IMG/VR virus record: IMGVR_UViG_3300032296_001978
Coordinates: 1 to 38,329 of that record
Reading direction: 5' to 3' (one strand)
Source of the DNA: a virus
DNA length: 38,329 bases
The notes under the pieces are model-generated. The model worked only from the letters and a program-made list of their open reading frames with translations. It was not told the DNA's origin and ran no database searches. Positions 4,663 through 38,329 of this stretch are shown piece after piece. The first letter of the stretch is position 1, and each line of letters begins with the position of its first letter. The translations under genes were made by a program, and so were the position numbers.

Positions 4663-4902
4663 TCAGGCCGCTTTGGCGGTCTTTTTGGAGCGCACAAGCG
4701 ACCAGTTCACGCGGTCGTTGAGGTCTTCAAGGGGGATGCCAGTTGCGGCGGAAACCTCGGGGGCACGCTCGGCGGAAACCCGGCCAGCCTTGAGCCAGTG
4801 CTCAACGTGTTGCCGGAGGACGCCATTGCCGACCGCTTCGGCCAACTTGGCCGGGGTTTCAAACTTCTGAACGGCACGCTGGATGCCGGTTACTTGGCTC
4901 AT
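4663..4902 (-). CDS. Cro/YdaS-type repressor
   Basis: The 79-residue protein has one helix-turn-helix (LAEAVGNGVLRQHVEHWLKAGRVSAERAPEVSAATGIPLEDLN), typical of YdaS/Cro proteins of proteobacterial prophages. The ATG at 4902 follows GAGGTGA. It is the first gene of the early rightward operon and is divergent from the CI-type repressor, with three operators between them. By analogy to Cro it would bind those operators and switch off the repressor promoter, favouring lytic growth. Confidence 0.88.
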   Translation of the reverse strand: MSQVTGIQRAVQKFETPAKLAEAVGNGVLRQHVEHWLKAGRVSAERAPEVSAATGIPLEDLNDRVNWSLVRSKKTAKAA

Positions 4903-4915
4903 AGATCACCTCAAA

Positions 4916-4978
4916 GCAAACTTGTTTGCACTGTATCACGCAAACTAACTTGCTGCAAGGGGATGCAAAATCCTTTGC
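4916..4978. promoter_or_regulatory. Right operator region: three 14-bp repressor sites
   Basis: Three related palindromes lie between the divergent repressor genes: GCAAACTTGTTTGC (4916-4929), GCAAACTAACTTGC (4940-4953) and GCAAAATCCTTTGC (4965-4978). Their starts are 24 and 25 bases apart, close to the lambda OR spacing. The shared half site is GCAAA. Two further copies lie at 6735 and 6768. The repetition is seen directly; binding by the CI and Cro proteins is inferred. Confidence 0.88.
4930..4958 (-). promoter_or_regulatory. Candidate PR promoter for the cro operon
   Basis: Reading the minus strand, a weak -35 TTGCAG (4953-4958) and a -10 TACAGT (4930-4935) are 17 bases apart. The -10 is preceded by TGA, making an extended -10. 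The middle operator occupies the spacer and the cro-proximal operator follows the -10, so repressor binding would block it. Confidence 0.55.
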
Positions 4979-4979
4979 C

Positions 4980-5684
4980 ATGAGAACCATTGGCGAACAG
5001 GCCAGGGAGTTCAGGCTTTCACGAGACTGGACAACCCTTGAGATGGCCCGGGAGGTGTCAAAACACCACCCGGACGGCCCTGTATCGCGCCAAGTAATAG
5101 AACAGCTTGAGAAAGCCGGAGCACGTAGGCCGCGATACATGACGGCCTTGGCAAAGGCCATGGGCACGACTGTTGAGTGCCTTGAGAGCGGACGTTTCGT
5201 TGTCGGAGAGTCAGATCAACACATCAAGTCGCACGAAGACGACGAGGCAGAGGGTGTCAAGATTCTTCAGTTCGACACAGGCGGCGCCATGGGCCACGGT
5301 GTCGTGCTTAGAGATCAGCCAGGAGTCATCAAGTCGTGGACCGTCAGCGACTCATGGCTACAGCAGAACGTGCACCGAATCACAGGGGCCAAGAACCTTA
5401 GCATCGTGACCGGCTTTGGGCCGTCCATGCAGCCGCTGTTCAATCCGGGCGATCCTTTGCTGGTTGACCGTGGCGTCATGCGGGTGGACGTGGACGGGGT
5501 GTATTTCTTCCGCGTCGGTCAAGAGGGCTTCGTCAAGCAGCTTCAGCGGATACCAACGGCCAACGGCCTAGTGATCCGGGCCAAGAGCTACAACACGCTC
5601 TATGACCCGTTCGACATCACCGAGGGCATGGACTTCGAGGTTTTCGGTCGCGTGGTCAAGGTGTGGAAGGGTGAGGAGTTTTGA
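4980..5684 (+). CDS. CI-type repressor with S24 peptidase-like domain
   Basis: The chosen ATG at 4980 gives 234 residues. The N-terminal third is a helix-turn-helix domain (IGEQAREFRLSRDWTTLEMAREVS ... VSRQVIEQLEKAG). The C-terminal half is a LexA/CI-type S24 domain with the catalytic Ser149 in GPSMQP and Lys186 in FVKQLQR. No obvious Ala-Gly cleavage pair is visible between the domains, where GGAMGHG is found, so self-cleavage in the SOS response is possible but uncertain. It faces away from cro across three operators and should hold the lysogenic state. The in-frame TTG at 4926 was rejected because it would run through the operators. Confidence 0.9.
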   Translation: MRTIGEQAREFRLSRDWTTLEMAREVSKHHPDGPVSRQVIEQLEKAGARRPRYMTALAKAMGTTVECLESGRFVVGESDQHIKSHEDDEAEGVKILQFDTGGAMGHGVVLRDQPGVIKSWTVSDSWLQQNVHRITGAKNLSIVTGFGPSMQPLFNPGDPLLVDRGVMRVDVDGVYFFRVGQEGFVKQLQRIPTANGLVIRAKSYNTLYDPFDITEGMDFEVFGRVVKVWKGEEF

Positions 5685-6619
5685 GCAAAGTGAGAGACAA
5701 TGGCGGCATGAGCGCTAGTGTTCATTTCTCCATCAAGTATGACGGTCCAGCCCTGGCTAATCACCAGATGGATGTGCGCGAGCTTGCTCCCGCGCTGATC
5801 GCACTAAGCGAGCTACTGGAGCAATCCAACAAGGCCGCCTTCCCTGATGCCGCAGAGGTCCGCGTCAACGTCCAAGGGAACTTTAAGGGTGGATCATTTG
5901 GTGTTGACCTGATTGCTGTACAGAACATCGCCCAGCAGCTTGTGGCGATGTTTTCCGGACCGGAGGCCACCGCTGCTGCCAATCTGCTGGCGATTCTTGG
6001 CGGGATTGGACTTCTTGGACATGACGGATTGATAGGCGTCATCAAATGGTTGCGCGGCAGAAAGCCAAGCTCCATTCGATTTGAAGGTGACAAGACGGTT
6101 TTTGAGATCATCGAAGCTGAAGCCATCGAGACTTTTGAGACCGATCTGGTGGCCGGAAAGTTGTACCAGAGCAGGGTCGTCCGACAGTCTCTCGCTAAGG
6201 TAATAAAGCCACTTGAGCGCGATGGTGTTGATGTGTTCGCAACGGGCCTTGGCGGAGAAACCCAAGCGGTTGTCACCAAGGCTGATGTGGCCGCTTTTAT
6301 GTCGGCTGCCAGCGAGGCGGACATTGTGTCCGACACAACGGCTGAGGGTGTTCTGCTTCAGATCGAGTCAGCCGTCTTCAAGGATGACAACAAGTGGAGA
6401 TTCCACGATGGATCATCCGCGTTCTTTGCGGAAATAACTGACCAAGAGTTTCTAGGCCGTGTCAACGCTGGGGAAGAGAGATTTGGCAAGGGCGACGTAC
6501 TGATCGTTGACCTTCGGCGAATCCAGTCTGTGTCGGACACCGGCCTGAAGCTCGAATACAAGGTGGTCAAGGTGCGCGAACACAAAGCGCCGCTTCAAGC
6601 TGGCCTTGCTCTAAGGTAG
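5681..6619 (+). CDS. Immunity-region protein of unknown function
   Basis: The 312-residue frame starts at a TTG with AGGAG six bases upstream, overlapping the repressor stop by 4 bases. The ATG at 5708 is the alternative and begins MSASVHFSIKYDG. The protein has an alpha/beta N-terminus, a hydrophobic Gly/Ala-rich segment at about 105-130 (LAILGGIGLLGHDGLIGVIKWL) that could be a membrane or buried helix, and a beta-rich C-terminus. It is coupled to the repressor, as lambda rexA is to cI, and is followed by a terminator, so it should be made in lysogens. A role in superinfection exclusion or lysogenic conversion is inference only. Confidence 0.8.
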   Translation: MSKVRDNGGMSASVHFSIKYDGPALANHQMDVRELAPALIALSELLEQSNKAAFPDAAEVRVNVQGNFKGGSFGVDLIAVQNIAQQLVAMFSGPEATAAANLLAILGGIGLLGHDGLIGVIKWLRGRKPSSIRFEGDKTVFEIIEAEAIETFETDLVAGKLYQSRVVRQSLAKVIKPLERDGVDVFATGLGGETQAVVTKADVAAFMSAASEADIVSDTTAEGVLLQIESAVFKDDNKWRFHDGSSAFFAEITDQEFLGRVNAGEERFGKGDVLIVDLRRIQSVSDTGLKLEYKVVKVREHKAPLQAGLALR

Positions 6620-6645
6620 CAGACTAACCGTAGCCTCCCACATAC

Positions 6646-6670
6646 AGCCCGCCGCGTGCGGGCTTTTTTT
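6646..6670 (+). terminator. Intrinsic terminator after the repressor operon
   Basis: A 7-bp perfect stem (AGCCCGC/GCGGGCT, 6646-6652 with 6658-6664) with a 5-base loop runs straight into seven T residues. It closes the repressor transcript before the leftward early promoter. Confidence 0.9.
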
Positions 6671-6734
6671 CGCCTTCACTCATCCATGAATCATGACCGC
6701 CTGTCGGCTGGATGGGACAACCTCACCCGAAAAA

Positions 6735-6786
6735 GCAAACTTTTTTGCTTGCACATCTTGCCTTGATGCAAATTTGTTTGCATACT
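6735..6786 (+). promoter_or_regulatory. Left operators and candidate PL promoter
   Basis: Two copies of the repressor operator, GCAAACTTTTTTGC (6735-6748) and GCAAATTTGTTTGC (6768-6781), flank or overlap a plausible promoter: -35 TTGCCT (6758-6763), 17-base spacer, -10 CATACT (6781-6786). The second operator fills the spacer, so the repressor would shut the promoter off. This is the counterpart of lambda PL/OL and drives the plus-strand early operon. Confidence 0.75.
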
Positions 6787-7073
6787 AGAGCCATCGCATC
6801 ACACACCGCATCGCCGGTAGCGAGTCGGCTCCTTAAAAACTCAGTCCCCCGGTTCTCGAAAGCAGACAGGGGGCGCATGACGAGCGATACAGCGTCCTGG
6901 GCGGTCACTGCCTTAAGTGTGGCAAACGCATCTAGGCGGGTTGGGTGATCGGCTAGTAGGTGCGTGAATAGGTTGGAGCCTGCACCAGCAGGGAGATGCC
7001 AACCAACGCCTCGAAAGGGGCGCAAACCAAAGCGTCCATGTCGGGCGCTTCGTTTTGCAACCAAGGAGAGAAC
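6787..7073 (+). promoter_or_regulatory. Leftward early leader with boxA-like sequence and hairpins
   Basis: No convincing gene lies here. GGCTCCTTAAAAA (6827-6839) resembles the boxA antitermination element. Three hairpins follow: CCCCC/GGGGG (6846-6850 with 6869-6873), a nested hairpin at 6971-7004 with outer GGTTGG/CCAACC and inner CCTGC/GCAGG, and an 8-bp stem at 7030-7050 followed by CGTTTT that could be a weak terminator. The layout fits a nut- or put-type antitermination leader; this is inferred. Confidence 0.4.
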
Positions 7074-7313
7074 ATGAACCTTCACACCCCTGAACGCCTG
7101 TCCAACGAGTCGCAGGCAGCCTACCGCGAGCGCCGGGCAGCGTCTGCGATGGCAGTCAAAGCAATGACCACGGTCAAGGCTGGGAAATCGACTGGCCGCG
7201 AACTGCACCGTGATGCGTTGCGCCAATCCGGCGGCATGGCAAAGATCGCAGGAAGTTACGGGCGCGGACTGCGCAACTGGATCAACCGCCGACAGGCTCA
7301 AGGCGGGCACTGA
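7074..7313 (+). CDS. Small basic protein, N-type antiterminator candidate
   Basis: A 79-residue, strongly basic protein whose ATG follows AAGGAGAG. It is the first gene of the leftward early operon, the place of lambda N. Its N-terminal part reads YRERRAASAMAVK, which matches the lambda N arginine-rich motif at RERRA and at the lysine seven residues on. The C-terminus carries further Arg clusters (YGRGLRNWINRRQ). N proteins diverge quickly, so this resemblance is suggestive only. It may instead be one of the small basic proteins of unknown function common in phages. Confidence 0.7.
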   Translation: MNLHTPERLSNESQAAYRERRAASAMAVKAMTTVKAGKSTGRELHRDALRQSGGMAKIAGSYGRGLRNWINRRQAQGGH

Positions 7314-7333
7314 CCACCCGGCCCCAGCAATGG

Positions 7334-7445
7334 GGCCATCAACCAACCAAGCTCACTGAAAGCTGTCTACCCAAGTCCCGGCAGCTATGTGTCGCCTGTG
7401 CGCAGGGCGGATGAAATTGGGATCGAGCTTGGTTGGTTGATGGCC
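7334..7445 (+). ncRNA. Perfect 21-bp inverted repeat (large stem-loop)
   Basis: Positions 7334-7354 and 7425-7445 are exact reverse complements with a 70-base interval. The interval itself contains AGCTG/CAGCT and a bulged CGCCTG/CAGGGCG hairpin. In RNA it would form a long double-stranded stem, suitable for RNase III. It lies between the N-like gene and the tmRNA gene and is not coding. A processing site, a small RNA or a structured leader are all possible. Confidence 0.7.
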
Positions 7446-7580
7446 TGAACCGGCAGCGCATCGGCACCGCTGCATTCATCAACCCAAGCCTGTGGACCTC
7501 AACCCTGCCTCATGGGAGCGGTCAGGCCATCACCAATCACCCAATGGCTTTCGTCGGCCAGCAGTGAAACATGGTTGTAG

Positions 7581-7865
7581 AGGGTCGCCCGAACCCTTAG
7601 AAGTTGAGATGTAAATGCGTTGGACGCGGGTTCGATTCCCGCCACCTCCACCAATGGGGGGGTGTACTGGTTTCGACAGCGCATGGCAGTCAATACCGAC
7701 AACCCGGCAAGCGGAGCCGTAAACCAAGCAAAGCAAGAACTGCCAATGACAGCTCTTACCTGAAGGTCGCTTGATCCTTCGGCGCAGCCTGATACGCGGC
7801 AACAGAACAGGCCCGGCCAGCTTGGTTAGCTGGCGCCAATCCTCCCCCCTGCCCTTCGTGGGCTT
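7581..7865 (+). ncRNA. ssrA: Circularly permuted (two-piece) tmRNA gene
   Basis: The 3' acceptor part comes first: GGAC followed by a T-arm (GCGGG/CCCGC around TTCGATT), then CACCTCC, A and CCA ending at 7653. A 4-base spacer follows, and the 5' part begins at 7658 with GGGGGTG, pairing 7 bp with CACCTCC. The third pair is G-U (7660 with 7647), the alanyl-tRNA synthetase identity element. A D-like segment TTTCGAC follows. Helix P2 can form between 7678-7684 and 7615-7621 (7 bp) and between 7690-7694 and 7603-7607. The tag frame is at 7742-7774, with its stop in the loop of a 7-bp P5 stem (7760-7766 with 7776-7782). Further hairpins lie at 7705-7719, 7816-7834 and 7851-7863. The mature piece ends are approximate. 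It would rescue stalled ribosomes together with SmpB. Confidence 0.9.
7742..7774 (+). CDS. tmRNA tag peptide reading frame (ANDSSYLKVA)
   Basis: The resume codon GCC at 7742 opens ten codons reading A-N-D-S-S-Y-L-K-V-A followed by TGA. The opening AND matches the E. coli tag ANDENYALAA. The base four before the resume codon is A, as required in known tmRNAs. The end KVA differs from the usual hydrophobic-Ala-Ala degron. The frame lacks a start codon, as expected, because translation resumes here. Confidence 0.85.
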   Translation, partial: ANDSSYLKVA

Positions 7866-7894
7866 GCCAGCACTTCGCGGTGACTGGCTTTTTT
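7866..7894 (+). terminator. Intrinsic terminator after the tmRNA gene
   Basis: A stem formed by GCCAG (7866-7870) with CTGGC (7884-7888), continued by CAC/GTG with one bulged A, and a TTCGCG loop, is followed by six T residues (7889-7894). It would end a tmRNA transcript just before the next gene. Confidence 0.82.
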
Positions 7895-7910
7895 ATTCCA
7901 AGGAGCTGAC

Positions 7911-8174
7911 ATGCACGCAGATCCCATTGTTGACGCTGGCCGCTACTTCGATGCGGTCTATGCCGAGTCAGACGCAATCGCACGATCCGACTATCTGGAA
8001 TCGCAAGCGGTGAACAAGATCACGCACGCCATTCGATTGGCCTCACGCGCTGGCCTCCTGTCACCCGCCAACGTGCGCCAAGTGCTGGAGACGCTGGCCT
8101 GCGAAATGAAGCTGTCCGGCTACTGCGACGCGGACATCGAAATGACTGAAACCCTTTCGGAGTCCATCGGCTGA
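7911..8174 (+). CDS. Hypothetical early phage protein, 87 aa
   Basis: The ATG follows AAGGAG with good spacing, 16 bases after the terminator T-run. The product is a soluble, mainly helical, acidic protein of 87 residues with no cysteine motif. Homologue-like small proteins accompany RecT in phage early operons, but I do not recognise the family. It is the first gene after the tmRNA and probably needs antitermination through the terminator or its own promoter. Confidence 0.75.
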   Translation: MHADPIVDAGRYFDAVYAESDAIARSDYLESQAVNKITHAIRLASRAGLLSPANVRQVLETLACEMKLSGYCDADIEMTETLSESIG

Positions 8175-8186
8175 CAGGAGGACGAG

Positions 8187-8348
8187 ATGAACACCACACG
8201 ACTGAAGCAAGCCCGCCGCCTGTTCTTCCACGAAATGGCACCGGCACACATCGCACGTCACAACGCCCGCCAATGGGCGCGGTCACTTCGCCAGCTTGGT
8301 GACGGCTGGCTGCTGGCTAAACCGCTGGAGGTCCGCCATGTTCAGTGA
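8187..8348 (+). CDS. Small basic protein, 53 aa
   Basis: ATG with AGGAGGA upstream; the frame encodes 53 residues rich in Arg, Ala and His and predicted helical. It overlaps the start of the next small gene by 11 bases. The strong ribosome site and operon spacing support it as real. Function unknown. Confidence 0.6.
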   Translation: MNTTRLKQARRLFFHEMAPAHIARHNARQWARSLRQLGDGWLLAKPLEVRHVQ

Positions 8349-8436
8349 TGACCGACTCGCCAACTTCGCTATCGGTGCCGTCATCGCCTGCATGGCCGCC
8401 CCGACCATTCTGGCCGCCCTTCTGGACTGGATCTGA
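8338..8436 (+). CDS. Single-pass membrane micro-protein, 32 aa
   Basis: A 32-residue frame beginning MFSDDRLANF and continuing as one hydrophobic helix (AIGAVIACMAAPTILAALL). GGAG lies about ten bases before the ATG. It overlaps the preceding gene and ends two bases before the next ATG. It is a typical phage early membrane peptide; its target is unknown. Confidence 0.55.
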   Translation: MFSDDRLANFAIGAVIACMAAPTILAALLDWI

Positions 8437-8438
8437 CC

Positions 8439-8660
8439 ATGAGCAAAGACAAACAAGATTTGAAGCGCCTCGCAAGAGAAGCGGAACTTGAGGTCATTGA
8501 GTACCCAGGTGGACGAATTCTGGTTGTCGGCGGATTGGTGAATGTCCATTGGTGGCCGAACAGCAAGCGACGCACGGCATACGTTGAAGGCGCTCCATCA
8601 GGTCGCCAGTACAGCAGCGCAAAAAACGTCATCAACCTTGCGACGAAGGGCAAGCCATGA
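8439..8660 (+). CDS. Hypothetical phage protein, 73 aa
   Basis: A basic, beta-rich protein of 73 residues beginning with a charged helix (MSKDKQDLKRLAREAELEVIEYPGG). The middle part, GGRILVVGGLVNVHWWPNSKRRTAYVEGA, looks like a small strand-rich fold. It overlaps the next gene by 4 bases. Similar short proteins occur in proteobacterial phages; function not known. Confidence 0.72.
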   Translation: MSKDKQDLKRLAREAELEVIEYPGGRILVVGGLVNVHWWPNSKRRTAYVEGAPSGRQYSSAKNVINLATKGKP

Positions 8661-8905
8661 GCATCACCAACGAACCGTACCTCTTGCGCGTTGACGGAAA
8701 CGACCTGACCGACTCCCGCGCAGTCATCGTCGGCGGCGAAGTTGAGCAGATCAACCGCCACTCGCTGGACATCGAGATTGAAAGCACTCCGCAGCCTTAC
8801 CACTTGGCCGCTCTGGTCAATTGGCTCTACGTCTGCGCCATCCTGATCCTTATCGCCATCGCTTCAGTCCCCGAGCTTCGGGCGGCTGTCGTGGATCTTT
8901 TCTGA
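8657..8905 (+). CDS. Small membrane protein, 82 aa
   Basis: An 82-residue protein with a soluble strand-rich N-terminus of about 50 residues and one clear membrane helix near the end (LAALVNWLYVCAILILIAIASV). It overlaps the preceding gene as ATGA and lies 18 bases before recT. It is probably anchored in the inner membrane with the N-terminal domain on one side. Function unknown. Confidence 0.7.
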   Translation: MSITNEPYLLRVDGNDLTDSRAVIVGGEVEQINRHSLDIEIESTPQPYHLAALVNWLYVCAILILIAIASVPELRAAVVDLF

Positions 8906-8923
8906 ACACCTGAGGGGGAAACC

Positions 8924-9853
8924 ATGAGTACAGCAATACAGACCATCTCCAACTACGTGTATGGGGCAGAGTCCTCGTTCAACAGTGTGTTGGTGGATCG
9001 GTCGCTGAACTTCGAGCGTGAAGCCGGGTTCGCAATCCAGATCCTGACGGCCAATGACTATGTGTCAAAGCTGGCAGCGGGTGACAAGCAATCGGTGGTC
9101 AACGCGGTGACGAACATCGCGGCCATTGGTATCAGCCTTAACCCCGCCAAGAAGCAGGCGTATCTGGTCCCGCGCAAGGGAAAGATTTGCCTTGACATCA
9201 GTTACATGGGCCTGATCGACCTTGCCATTCAGTCCGGGTCCATCTTGTGGGCGCAGGCGGATCTTGTCCACGCCAATGACGCATTCACCCTCAACGGGTT
9301 TGACCGTCCGCCGACCCACTCATACAACCCGTTTTCCAAGGACCGGGGCGAGATCGTCGGCGCGTTCGTAGTGGTCAAGACGCACAGCGGCGACTACCTC
9401 ACGGACACCATGAGCCGGGAGGAAATCGACGCCATCAAGAACCGATCCGAGTCGGTGAAGGCTGGCAAGCAATCCCCGTGGGATACGGACTATGGCGAGA
9501 TGGCAAAGAAGACCGTGGTCAAGCGGGCTTACAAGTATTGGCCGAAGTCAGACCGACTCGATCAAGCCATCCACCACATGAACACGGACGGCGGCGAAGG
9601 GCTTGCATCGCTTGCAGCACCACGCGCCGAGGCCATCGATCCGCAACCCGTCATCGACGGGCTGCGCAACACAAAGACCGTCGAAGACCTGAAAGCCTAT
9701 TGGGCCGAGAACAACGGAAAGCTGGCGAACGACCTGAACGCGCACGACGCGCTGAAGGCGGTATACAAGGCCCAGCTTGCCCGCATCCGTGCGCAGCAGG
9801 CCAAGGATGAAGCAACTGATGTGGAGGACAAAAATGCCGTGGCTGAATCATGA
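8924..9853 (+). CDS. recT: RecT single-strand annealing protein
   Basis: A 309-residue RecT family recombinase. It would bind the 3' single-stranded tails made by the neighbouring exonuclease and anneal them to complementary DNA. Family features are the N-terminal region with AIGISLNPAKKQAYLVPRKGKICLDISYMGLIDLA, the GAFVVVK strand, and the later MAKKTVVKRAYKYWPKS. The length fits the family. The C-terminal 60 residues are charged and variable, as in other RecT proteins that contact SSB. The ATG follows GAGGGGG. It overlaps the exonuclease gene by 20 bases, a typical pairing. Confidence 0.95.
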   Translation: MSTAIQTISNYVYGAESSFNSVLVDRSLNFEREAGFAIQILTANDYVSKLAAGDKQSVVNAVTNIAAIGISLNPAKKQAYLVPRKGKICLDISYMGLIDLAIQSGSILWAQADLVHANDAFTLNGFDRPPTHSYNPFSKDRGEIVGAFVVVKTHSGDYLTDTMSREEIDAIKNRSESVKAGKQSPWDTDYGEMAKKTVVKRAYKYWPKSDRLDQAIHHMNTDGGEGLASLAAPRAEAIDPQPVIDGLRNTKTVEDLKAYWAENNGKLANDLNAHDALKAVYKAQLARIRAQQAKDEATDVEDKNAVAES

Positions 9854-37380: not shown

Positions 37381-37865
37381 TGCTGCTCCTTTGGTTTTCC
37401 AATCATCTTGTCCAGGTCGATGGTGGCGTACCCGGACCTAATGCGGGCTATGGTCAGTTGGATGGCCCGCTCGTACTCGGCGCGGCTGATGCTGGATCGC
37501 TGGAGGTCGTGCATCTCGATCAGCTCGCGCAGGTTCTTCAACCCTTCGCCGGTCAGACCCATGCGCCCGGTTCGCTGGAAACGGCCTGCGGCGTCGATCA
37601 GTGCAGCCTCTGCACGGTGGGCGACTTCCATCACCTCAGGGCCGACACCCTGCCCTGCAATGGTTTGGGCAAGGTTGTTGACGGCGGCTAGGTCTTGCCA
37701 GTGTTTTAGGGTGGCGCAGCCGCTGGTGAAGGCGTCCAGGCTGGAAAGCTCACGCATCAGAAGCTGGTCAAGGTCTTTTCGCGGGGCGATGGCAGCGCCA
37801 GAAATCGCGTGTTCGATAGGGTTGGTTTTGGCCCATACCTTGCGGATACAGCGTTTGCGGCTCAT
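37365..37865 (-). CDS. Hypothetical phage early protein, 166 aa
   Basis: A 166-residue protein with a basic first part (MSRKRCIRKVWAKTNPIEHAISGAAIAPRKDLDQLLMRELSSLDAF) and a wholly helical remainder. Proteins with this opening occur in early operons of beta- and gammaproteobacterial prophages. No catalytic motif is seen. The ATG overlaps the stop of the winged-helix gene as TGATG. Function unknown. Confidence 0.78.
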   Translation of the reverse strand: MSRKRCIRKVWAKTNPIEHAISGAAIAPRKDLDQLLMRELSSLDAFTSGCATLKHWQDLAAVNNLAQTIAGQGVGPEVMEVAHRAEAALIDAAGRFQRTGRMGLTGEGLKNLRELIEMHDLQRSSISRAEYERAIQLTIARIRSGYATIDLDKMIGKPKEQQCATA

Positions 37866-38329
37866 CAGAACCCCCTCGATTTGATGGCGTTGGTCTGATC
37901 GACACCTGGGCGGTATGGTGCGGTCCAGTAGTTCGCCATGACCAATGGTTCCTTGACTGTCCCGGCGCAGATGGGATTGCGCGATGTCTCTGGGGCGCGG
38001 TAACGCTCACGGGCGGCCCAGTAGGCGACAGGCTTGCCAGGTGCTGTGTTGGTGATGAAACCGTTTTGCTGAAGGTTGAGCAGGAAGTTCTGAACGCGCT
38101 GGCGGTCGATCTTCAGGCTGGTGGCGATCGTGCTGCTCGATGGCGGGCTGGCTTGGCGCTTGATGAAGTTGTAGACACGCTCACGGTCATCGCTGGCATT
38201 GCGGACCAGATTTCCACGGGGCAGACTGGTCTGAAGGCGGAAAACGCTGTCCTCACCCGGCTTGCCACGGGTTGCCTTGATGTCATATCCCTTCTCGCGC
38301 AGACGCTTGAGTGCGTTCTTGAACGAATG
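37865..38329 (-). CDS. Winged-helix protein, C-terminal part (gene crosses the contig ends)
   Basis: This is the continuation of the gene that starts at 234. The 38206-37865 part adds 113 residues: a second helix-turn-helix with wing (RVYNFIKRQASPPSSSTIATSLKIDRQRVQNFLLNLQQNGFITNT) and a tail with AYWAARERYRAPETSRNP. Bases 38207-38329 repeat positions 1-123. Two winged-helix domains in tandem suggest DNA binding, perhaps in early regulation. The family is not recognised. Confidence 0.8.
   Translation of the reverse strand, partial: HSFKNALKRLREKGYDIKATRGKPGEDSVFRLQTSLPRGNLVRNASDDRERVYNFIKRQASPPSSSTIATSLKIDRQRVQNFLLNLQQNGFITNTAPGKPVAYWAARERYRAPETSRNPICAGTVKEPLVMANYWTAPYRPGVDQTNAIKSRGF
38207..38329. 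repeat. Terminal direct repeat, right copy
   Basis: Exact copy of 1-123. It should be counted once in the 38,206-bp genome. Confidence 0.95.

Follow-up and report, generated by a model that had tools for sequence, protein, structure and literature searches.

A circularly permuted tmRNA gene preceded by a conserved 22-nt leader in a lambda-like phage

A 2022 survey found tmRNA in 402 of 18,146 phage genomes and described 133 unique phage tmRNA structures, including 53 two-piece forms, of which 50 came from marine or aquatic samples (PMC9004378). A 2025 tmRNA database counts 79 unique phage sequences, whatever their form (PMC11915505). Permuted tmRNA genes are also carried, in some cases unannotated, by published Stenotrophomonas, Xanthomonas, Bordetella and Alcaligenes phages. 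An initial sequence-only reading of the DNA studied here had stated that it knew of no well described case in a lambda-like phage; these counts and published genomes do not support the suggestion that phage examples are poorly described. Stenotrophomonas phage Marzo (L005) and Xanthomonas phage Rb1 (L002) each carry a permuted tmRNA. The gammaproteobacterial hosts Xanthomonas and Stenotrophomonas have a one-piece tmRNA. Two-piece phage tmRNAs are already known, and the window (the whole 38,329-nt stretch of viral DNA analysed here) adds one, in a small phage-only subgroup. What is new is a supported clade with two further phage loci (L290 and L202), together with unusual tag ends and a 22-nt leader common to L351 and L350 too. 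A compact cI-type phage joins the known carriers of two-piece tmRNA, which are predominantly marine and aquatic phages.

ARAGORN called a permuted tmRNA at 7561-7865 on the + strand, with the tag ANDSSYLKVA followed by a stop. Two Rfam covariance models matched above their cut-offs, RF04321 (tmRNA_permuted) at 7597-7774 with 109.7 bits against 47 and RF01850 (beta_tmRNA) at 7562-7838 with 97.6 bits against 84. Both ARAGORN and a letter-by-letter reading place the 3' tRNA part and CCA ahead of the 5' tRNA part and the tag frame. The alanine-identity features are all present, namely a 7-bp acceptor, G3-U70, A73 and an encoded CCA. On the evidence of its sequence, the locus holds an entire tmRNA (ssrA) gene, circularly permuted and of the structural type seen in Betaproteobacteria. 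Its parts are as follows.

7545-7566, + strand: conserved leader of 22 nt, TGGCTTTCGTCGGCCAGCAGTG, adjoining the acceptor piece on its 5' side (IMG/VR pattern search; five-phage alignment)
7573-7578, + strand: outer P2, 5' strand GGUUGU, partner 7699-7704 (fold; compensatory changes in L290 and L202)
7580-7598, + strand: acceptor-piece hairpin GAGGGU/ACCCUU (fold)
7603-7622, + strand: inner P2, 5' strands GUUGA (7603-7607), UGU (7610-7612) and AUGCGUUG (7615-7622) (fold)
7626-7642, + strand: T-arm GCGGG-UUCGAUU-CCCGC (RF04321 and RF01850 alignments; variable pair standard in 111 of 111 viral cores)
7643-7653, + strand: 3' acceptor strand CACCUCC, discriminator A and encoded CCA, pairing with 7658-7664 and including G3-U70 (sequence)
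7654-7657, + strand: intervening sequence ATGG, 4 nt, between CCA and the 5' acceptor strand, removal expected
7658-7664, + strand: 5' acceptor strand GGGGGUG, start of the coding piece, seven pairs with 7643-7649
7665-7676, + strand: D-loop-like segment TACTGGTTTCGA / UACUGGUUUCGA (Rfam alignment; sequence)
7677-7704, + strand: P2 3' strands CAGCGCAU (7677-7684), GCA (7686-7688), UCAAU (7690-7694) and ACAACC (7699-7704) (fold; covariation)
7742-7774, + strand: tag frame ANDSSYLKVA, resume codon GCC, stop TGA (ARAGORN; sequence)
7787-7812, + strand: helix GCCUG/CAGGC enclosing the loop motif CGGCAACAGAA, a possible pseudoknot region (sequence, by eye)
7816-7834, + strand: P5-type hairpin GCCAGC-UUGGUUA-GCUGGC (sequence)
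7866-7894, + strand: intrinsic-terminator-like hairpin with a bulge, then TTTTTT (sequence)

The sequence-only reading had already proposed this order of parts, a 7-bp acceptor with G-U at the third pair, and possible P2 and P5 pairings, and it had named Rfam models, ARAGORN in permuted mode and conservation in related phages as checks. The order is borne out by the letter-by-letter read-back, the permuted call with its intact tag frame and both covariance models, and the acceptor is seen in the sequence just as described. The P2 becomes a helix of 6+5+3+8 bp in the minimum-energy fold and is backed by covariation; a P5-type hairpin is read at 7816-7834. ARAGORN, Rfam and the phage gene content agree on a circularly permuted, two-piece tmRNA in a lambda-like phage. 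The locus itself was correctly placed, but its start was not: the outer P2 strand GGUUGU occupies 7573-7578, which puts the beginning of the gene ~8 nt further 5' than position 7581. The bulged hairpin at 7866-7894 had been missed by an ungapped terminator scan. A loop of the CGGCAACAGAA type recurs in L290 and L351 in the five-phage alignment. The 4-nt insert matches the 3-4 nt inserts of Accumulibacter-type and other betaproteobacterial genes, which were retrieved with a pattern permitting inserts of 2-32 nt.

All 20 of 20 pairs of the acceptor, T-arm and inner P2 form in the window. At least about 200 IMG/VR contigs carry the permuted signature, some of them perhaps prophages with host flank, and covariation was scored on 111 distinct 66-base cores from viral contigs, counting only those pairs that the search pattern had not fixed. 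Across these relatives the paired positions covary strongly: freely varying pairs were standard in 952 of 999 cells, as compared to a mean of 596 and a maximum of 628 with shuffled partners, an excess that is inflated in that the shuffle ignores relatedness. Variable T-arm and acceptor pairs occur as four to six pair types with zero exceptions, and the 8-bp section of the inner P2 covaries as well. The outer P2, first located by eye in the sequences of the nearest clade, changes in a compensatory manner from GGUUGU/ACAACC in the window to GAUCGU/ACGAUC in L290 and AGCCGU/ACGGCU in L202. The minimum-energy fold of 7572-7838 combines the acceptor stem, the T-stem and the four P2 sections. Its energy is no more than expected from base composition (z = -0.6), so fold energy was dropped as evidence, and homology and covariation rather than stability carry the case.

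The window ends are identical over 123 bases (1-123 = 38207-38329) and the two ends are adjacent in a sister phage, so the window represents a complete circularised genome. A host-flank artefact is thereby ruled out. Two repressor-type genes are encoded.

4926-5684: cI-type repressor with an S24 peptidase domain
4663-4902: small repressor-like gene, divergent, in the cro position

Other genes include a replication initiator, NinB, NinG, RecT, a RecE-like exonuclease, a helicase and a DNA methyltransferase, along with structural and lysis genes (terminase, portal, head, tail, spanin and endolysin). The genome has cI- and cro-like genes, yet no match to tyrosine integrase (PF00589) or resolvase (PF00239) was found in its complete sequence. 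The nearest match to the terminase is in Caulobacter phage DMCA, at 68%. In L312, a genome belonging to the same family as an Accumulibacter genome, one region encodes capsid and head-morphogenesis proteins in common with the window (58% and 54%), which may be taken as only a hint of the host. ARAGORN also called a tRNA-Thr (cgt) at 37443-37530, inside an opposite-strand coding stretch and probably spurious.

Within this genome, the rightward early region contains the tmRNA, which is placed between the repressor side and recT and ends in its own terminator (7866-7894). The sister L009 carries the same gene with 1 of 327 bases different (position 7591, in the loop of the acceptor-piece hairpin) and a different immunity region. 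This identity alone is not evidence of selection, because recT, the helicase and the methyltransferase are equally unchanged. ARAGORN found no tmRNA in the sequence stretch available for each of the RecT relatives L010-L049, and the tmRNA is therefore regarded as accessory cargo.

Phylogenetic analysis of 175 permuted tmRNAs places the window with L290 (support 100/90) and then L202 (95/99), with deeper branches lacking resolution, and supports these three sequences as a phage-only clade. These nearest relatives are phage-borne and their tag frames are open. Grouping the window with 23 bacterial sequences was not rejected by an AU test (p 0.22), so that the gene may have come from a bacterial donor. 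The best DNA match among 399 genomes of Burkholderiales, the order of Accumulibacter, covered 59 of 244 bases, in the T-arm/acceptor segment only, and argues against a recent capture from a sampled host, although the true host may lie outside the 399. These data also bear on whether the gene could be left over from integration into a host ssrA or from imprecise excision out of one, serving as an att site or captured gene without a role in the phage. Integration favours ssrA and prophage ssrA fragments are known (PMC9004378), and the AU test leaves a grouping with bacterial sequences unrejected. Yet both pieces and the terminator are present, the circularised genome is complete and matches neither integrase nor resolvase, the window groups with phage tmRNAs, and the best Burkholderiales match is limited to those 59 bases. 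We consider a remnant very unlikely. The narrower case of an attachment-site remnant, a terminal gene part beside an integrase, was likewise rejected: the gene is complete and neither PF00589 nor PF00239 is matched.

We estimate a probability of about 0.78 that the locus, an accessory gene adjoining those for RecT/RecE, encodes a working two-piece tmRNA, which would be processed, charged by the host, delivered by host SmpB and active in ribosome rescue. What the data show is the sequence anatomy and its conservation; established tmRNA biology suggests how transcription, processing, charging and rescue would proceed. A single precursor RNA would be transcribed from the locus, and RNase P and 3' trimming would excise the 4-nt insert between CCA and G7658, by analogy with known permuted tmRNAs. 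The acceptor piece and coding piece would stay joined through the acceptor stem and P2, and host AlaRS would alanylate the RNA through G3-U70. Host SmpB would then deliver the charged tmRNA to ribosomes stalled on broken mRNAs. The ribosome would resume on GCC, add ANDSSYLKVA, stop at TGA and be freed during phage growth. Function would depend on the host because the phage genome has no SmpB match. Of the functions suggested by the sequence-only reading, keeping ribosomes free during phage growth is the default interpretation, and replacement of the host ssrA has no support in these data.

The missing SmpB match would also suit a decoy function, in which the RNA sequesters SmpB or obstructs the tmRNA of the host; such a function has been proposed for the tRNA-domain-only RNA of mycobacteriophage DS6A. 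A phage-encoded RNA consisting of only the tRNA-like domain does exist, and a similar molecule inhibits tmRNA (PMC4131195; PMC11915505). Nonetheless, the window keeps a full tag frame, resume and stop codons, P2 and the 3' hairpins, none of which a decoy needs, and open tag frames are kept in the nearest relatives. Such a role appears very unlikely.

The tag itself is unusual. Among the matches listed, 171 of 197 viral permuted calls have a tag ending in -AA before the stop, vs just 5 of 197 ending in -VA (the window, L009, L290, L155 and L185). Other leader-bearing phages end in -LKAA (L351), -TANA (L202) and -ALAV (L350, in a 35-residue frame identified by visual reading). Two permuted tmRNAs were missed by ARAGORN, at L350:4600-5100 (-) and L352:9380-9880 (+). 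A divergent tag acting as a changed or phage-specific degron, which the sequence-only reading had suggested, is possible and at least consistent with these endings. The RNA might then be a working tmRNA kept chiefly for its changed tag, so that the proteins it marks would fare differently from those tagged by host ssrA, through slower breakdown or another protease. The rarity of -VA and the endings of the leader-bearing relatives favour this idea, but L351 has the leader yet an ordinary -AA, so that the ending is not fixed in the group, and altering the end does not prevent rapid degradation for some E. coli ssrA variants. We regard the changed tag as an improbable main purpose as compared to ribosome rescue. 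The divergent tag would let mass spectrometry tell phage-made tagging from that of the host.

The 22-nt leader is the second distinctive feature of the group. The exact pattern GCTTTCGTCGGCCNGCAGTG has six occurrences in IMG/VR, and 6/6 lie immediately 5' of a permuted tmRNA. Besides the window's sister (L007), the carriers are L290, L202, L351, L350 and L352; with L350 and L352 resembling near copies, the six occurrences amount to five distinct sequences. A looser pattern gave four extra chance-like IMG/VR matches, 0/4 adjoining a tmRNA. In 300 Burkholderiales genomes there were two one-mismatch matches, neither with a tmRNA, and phage and plasmid collections gave zero tmRNA-linked matches. 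In the alignment of five phages, the leader is conserved to the same degree as the T-arm. It can fold as a 5-bp hairpin, closed by U-A in the window and by G-C in three relatives; L290 has an unpaired A-A at this position.

The leader sits where the Rfam beta consensus and Accumulibacter genes carry a TATAAT- or CATAAT-like box, and it is possibly a promoter or an RNA processing element. No sigma-70-like promoter was found within 6500-9000. A sigma-54 reading, attempted by eye, was rejected on the unsuitable GG-GC spacing. In L350 a tRNA-Met gene ends just 5' of the leader-bearing tmRNA, which favours a leader acting within a shared transcript. More speculatively, the group may represent a phage-owned permuted tmRNA lineage, in which the leader is a dedicated cis signal moving with the tmRNA between unlike phages and the altered tag ends change protein fate; we regard this as a tentative possibility. 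If true, the cis signal would be a phage-timed promoter or a processing hairpin. The leader offers a concrete handle on the expression or maturation of a phage tmRNA, and the small phage-only clade provides a setting for testing what such an RNA does.

Compared with known systems, the window gene resembles the betaproteobacterial permuted tmRNA (RF01850/RF04321, e.g., Accumulibacter ssrA) in part order, 7-bp acceptor, G3-U70, T-arm, D-like segment and P2, and shares with Accumulibacter-type ssrA an insert of 3-4 nt and a tag beginning ANDxxx. It differs in its tag (ANDSSYLKVA vs ANDERFALAA), in a divergent P2 and coding region, in being phage-carried and in having the leader in place of the TATAAT/CATAAT-like box. 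Like methylophage Melnitz (PMC9004378), the window has a complete phage-encoded permuted tmRNA in the early region, but that marine myophage has an ssrA of alphaproteobacterial type plus a glutamine riboswitch, whereas the window has a beta-type gene in a small lambda-like genome.

The Stenotrophomonas, Xanthomonas, Bordetella and Alcaligenes phages (L005, L002, L004 and L003) share the permuted gene and a full tag frame. Unlike the window, they have long inserts (107 nt in L002, 125 in L005), -AA tags and no leader, and their genes lie mostly within tRNA clusters of larger phages. Closest are L290, L202, L351 and L350/L352, with which the window shares the leader, the acceptor-piece hairpin and alignable tag regions. 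Even here the inserts of L290 (80 nt) and L202 (94 nt) differ from that of the window, as do the 35-aa tag and upstream tRNA-Met gene of L350/L352. Window proteins tested against the L290 and L202 loci (L350-L352 were left out) gave one match, in L202. A phrog_3243 protein, of unknown function, is near the tmRNA in both the window (5681-6619) and L202 (286-1296, - strand) at 30% identity, and this proximity may be due to chance.
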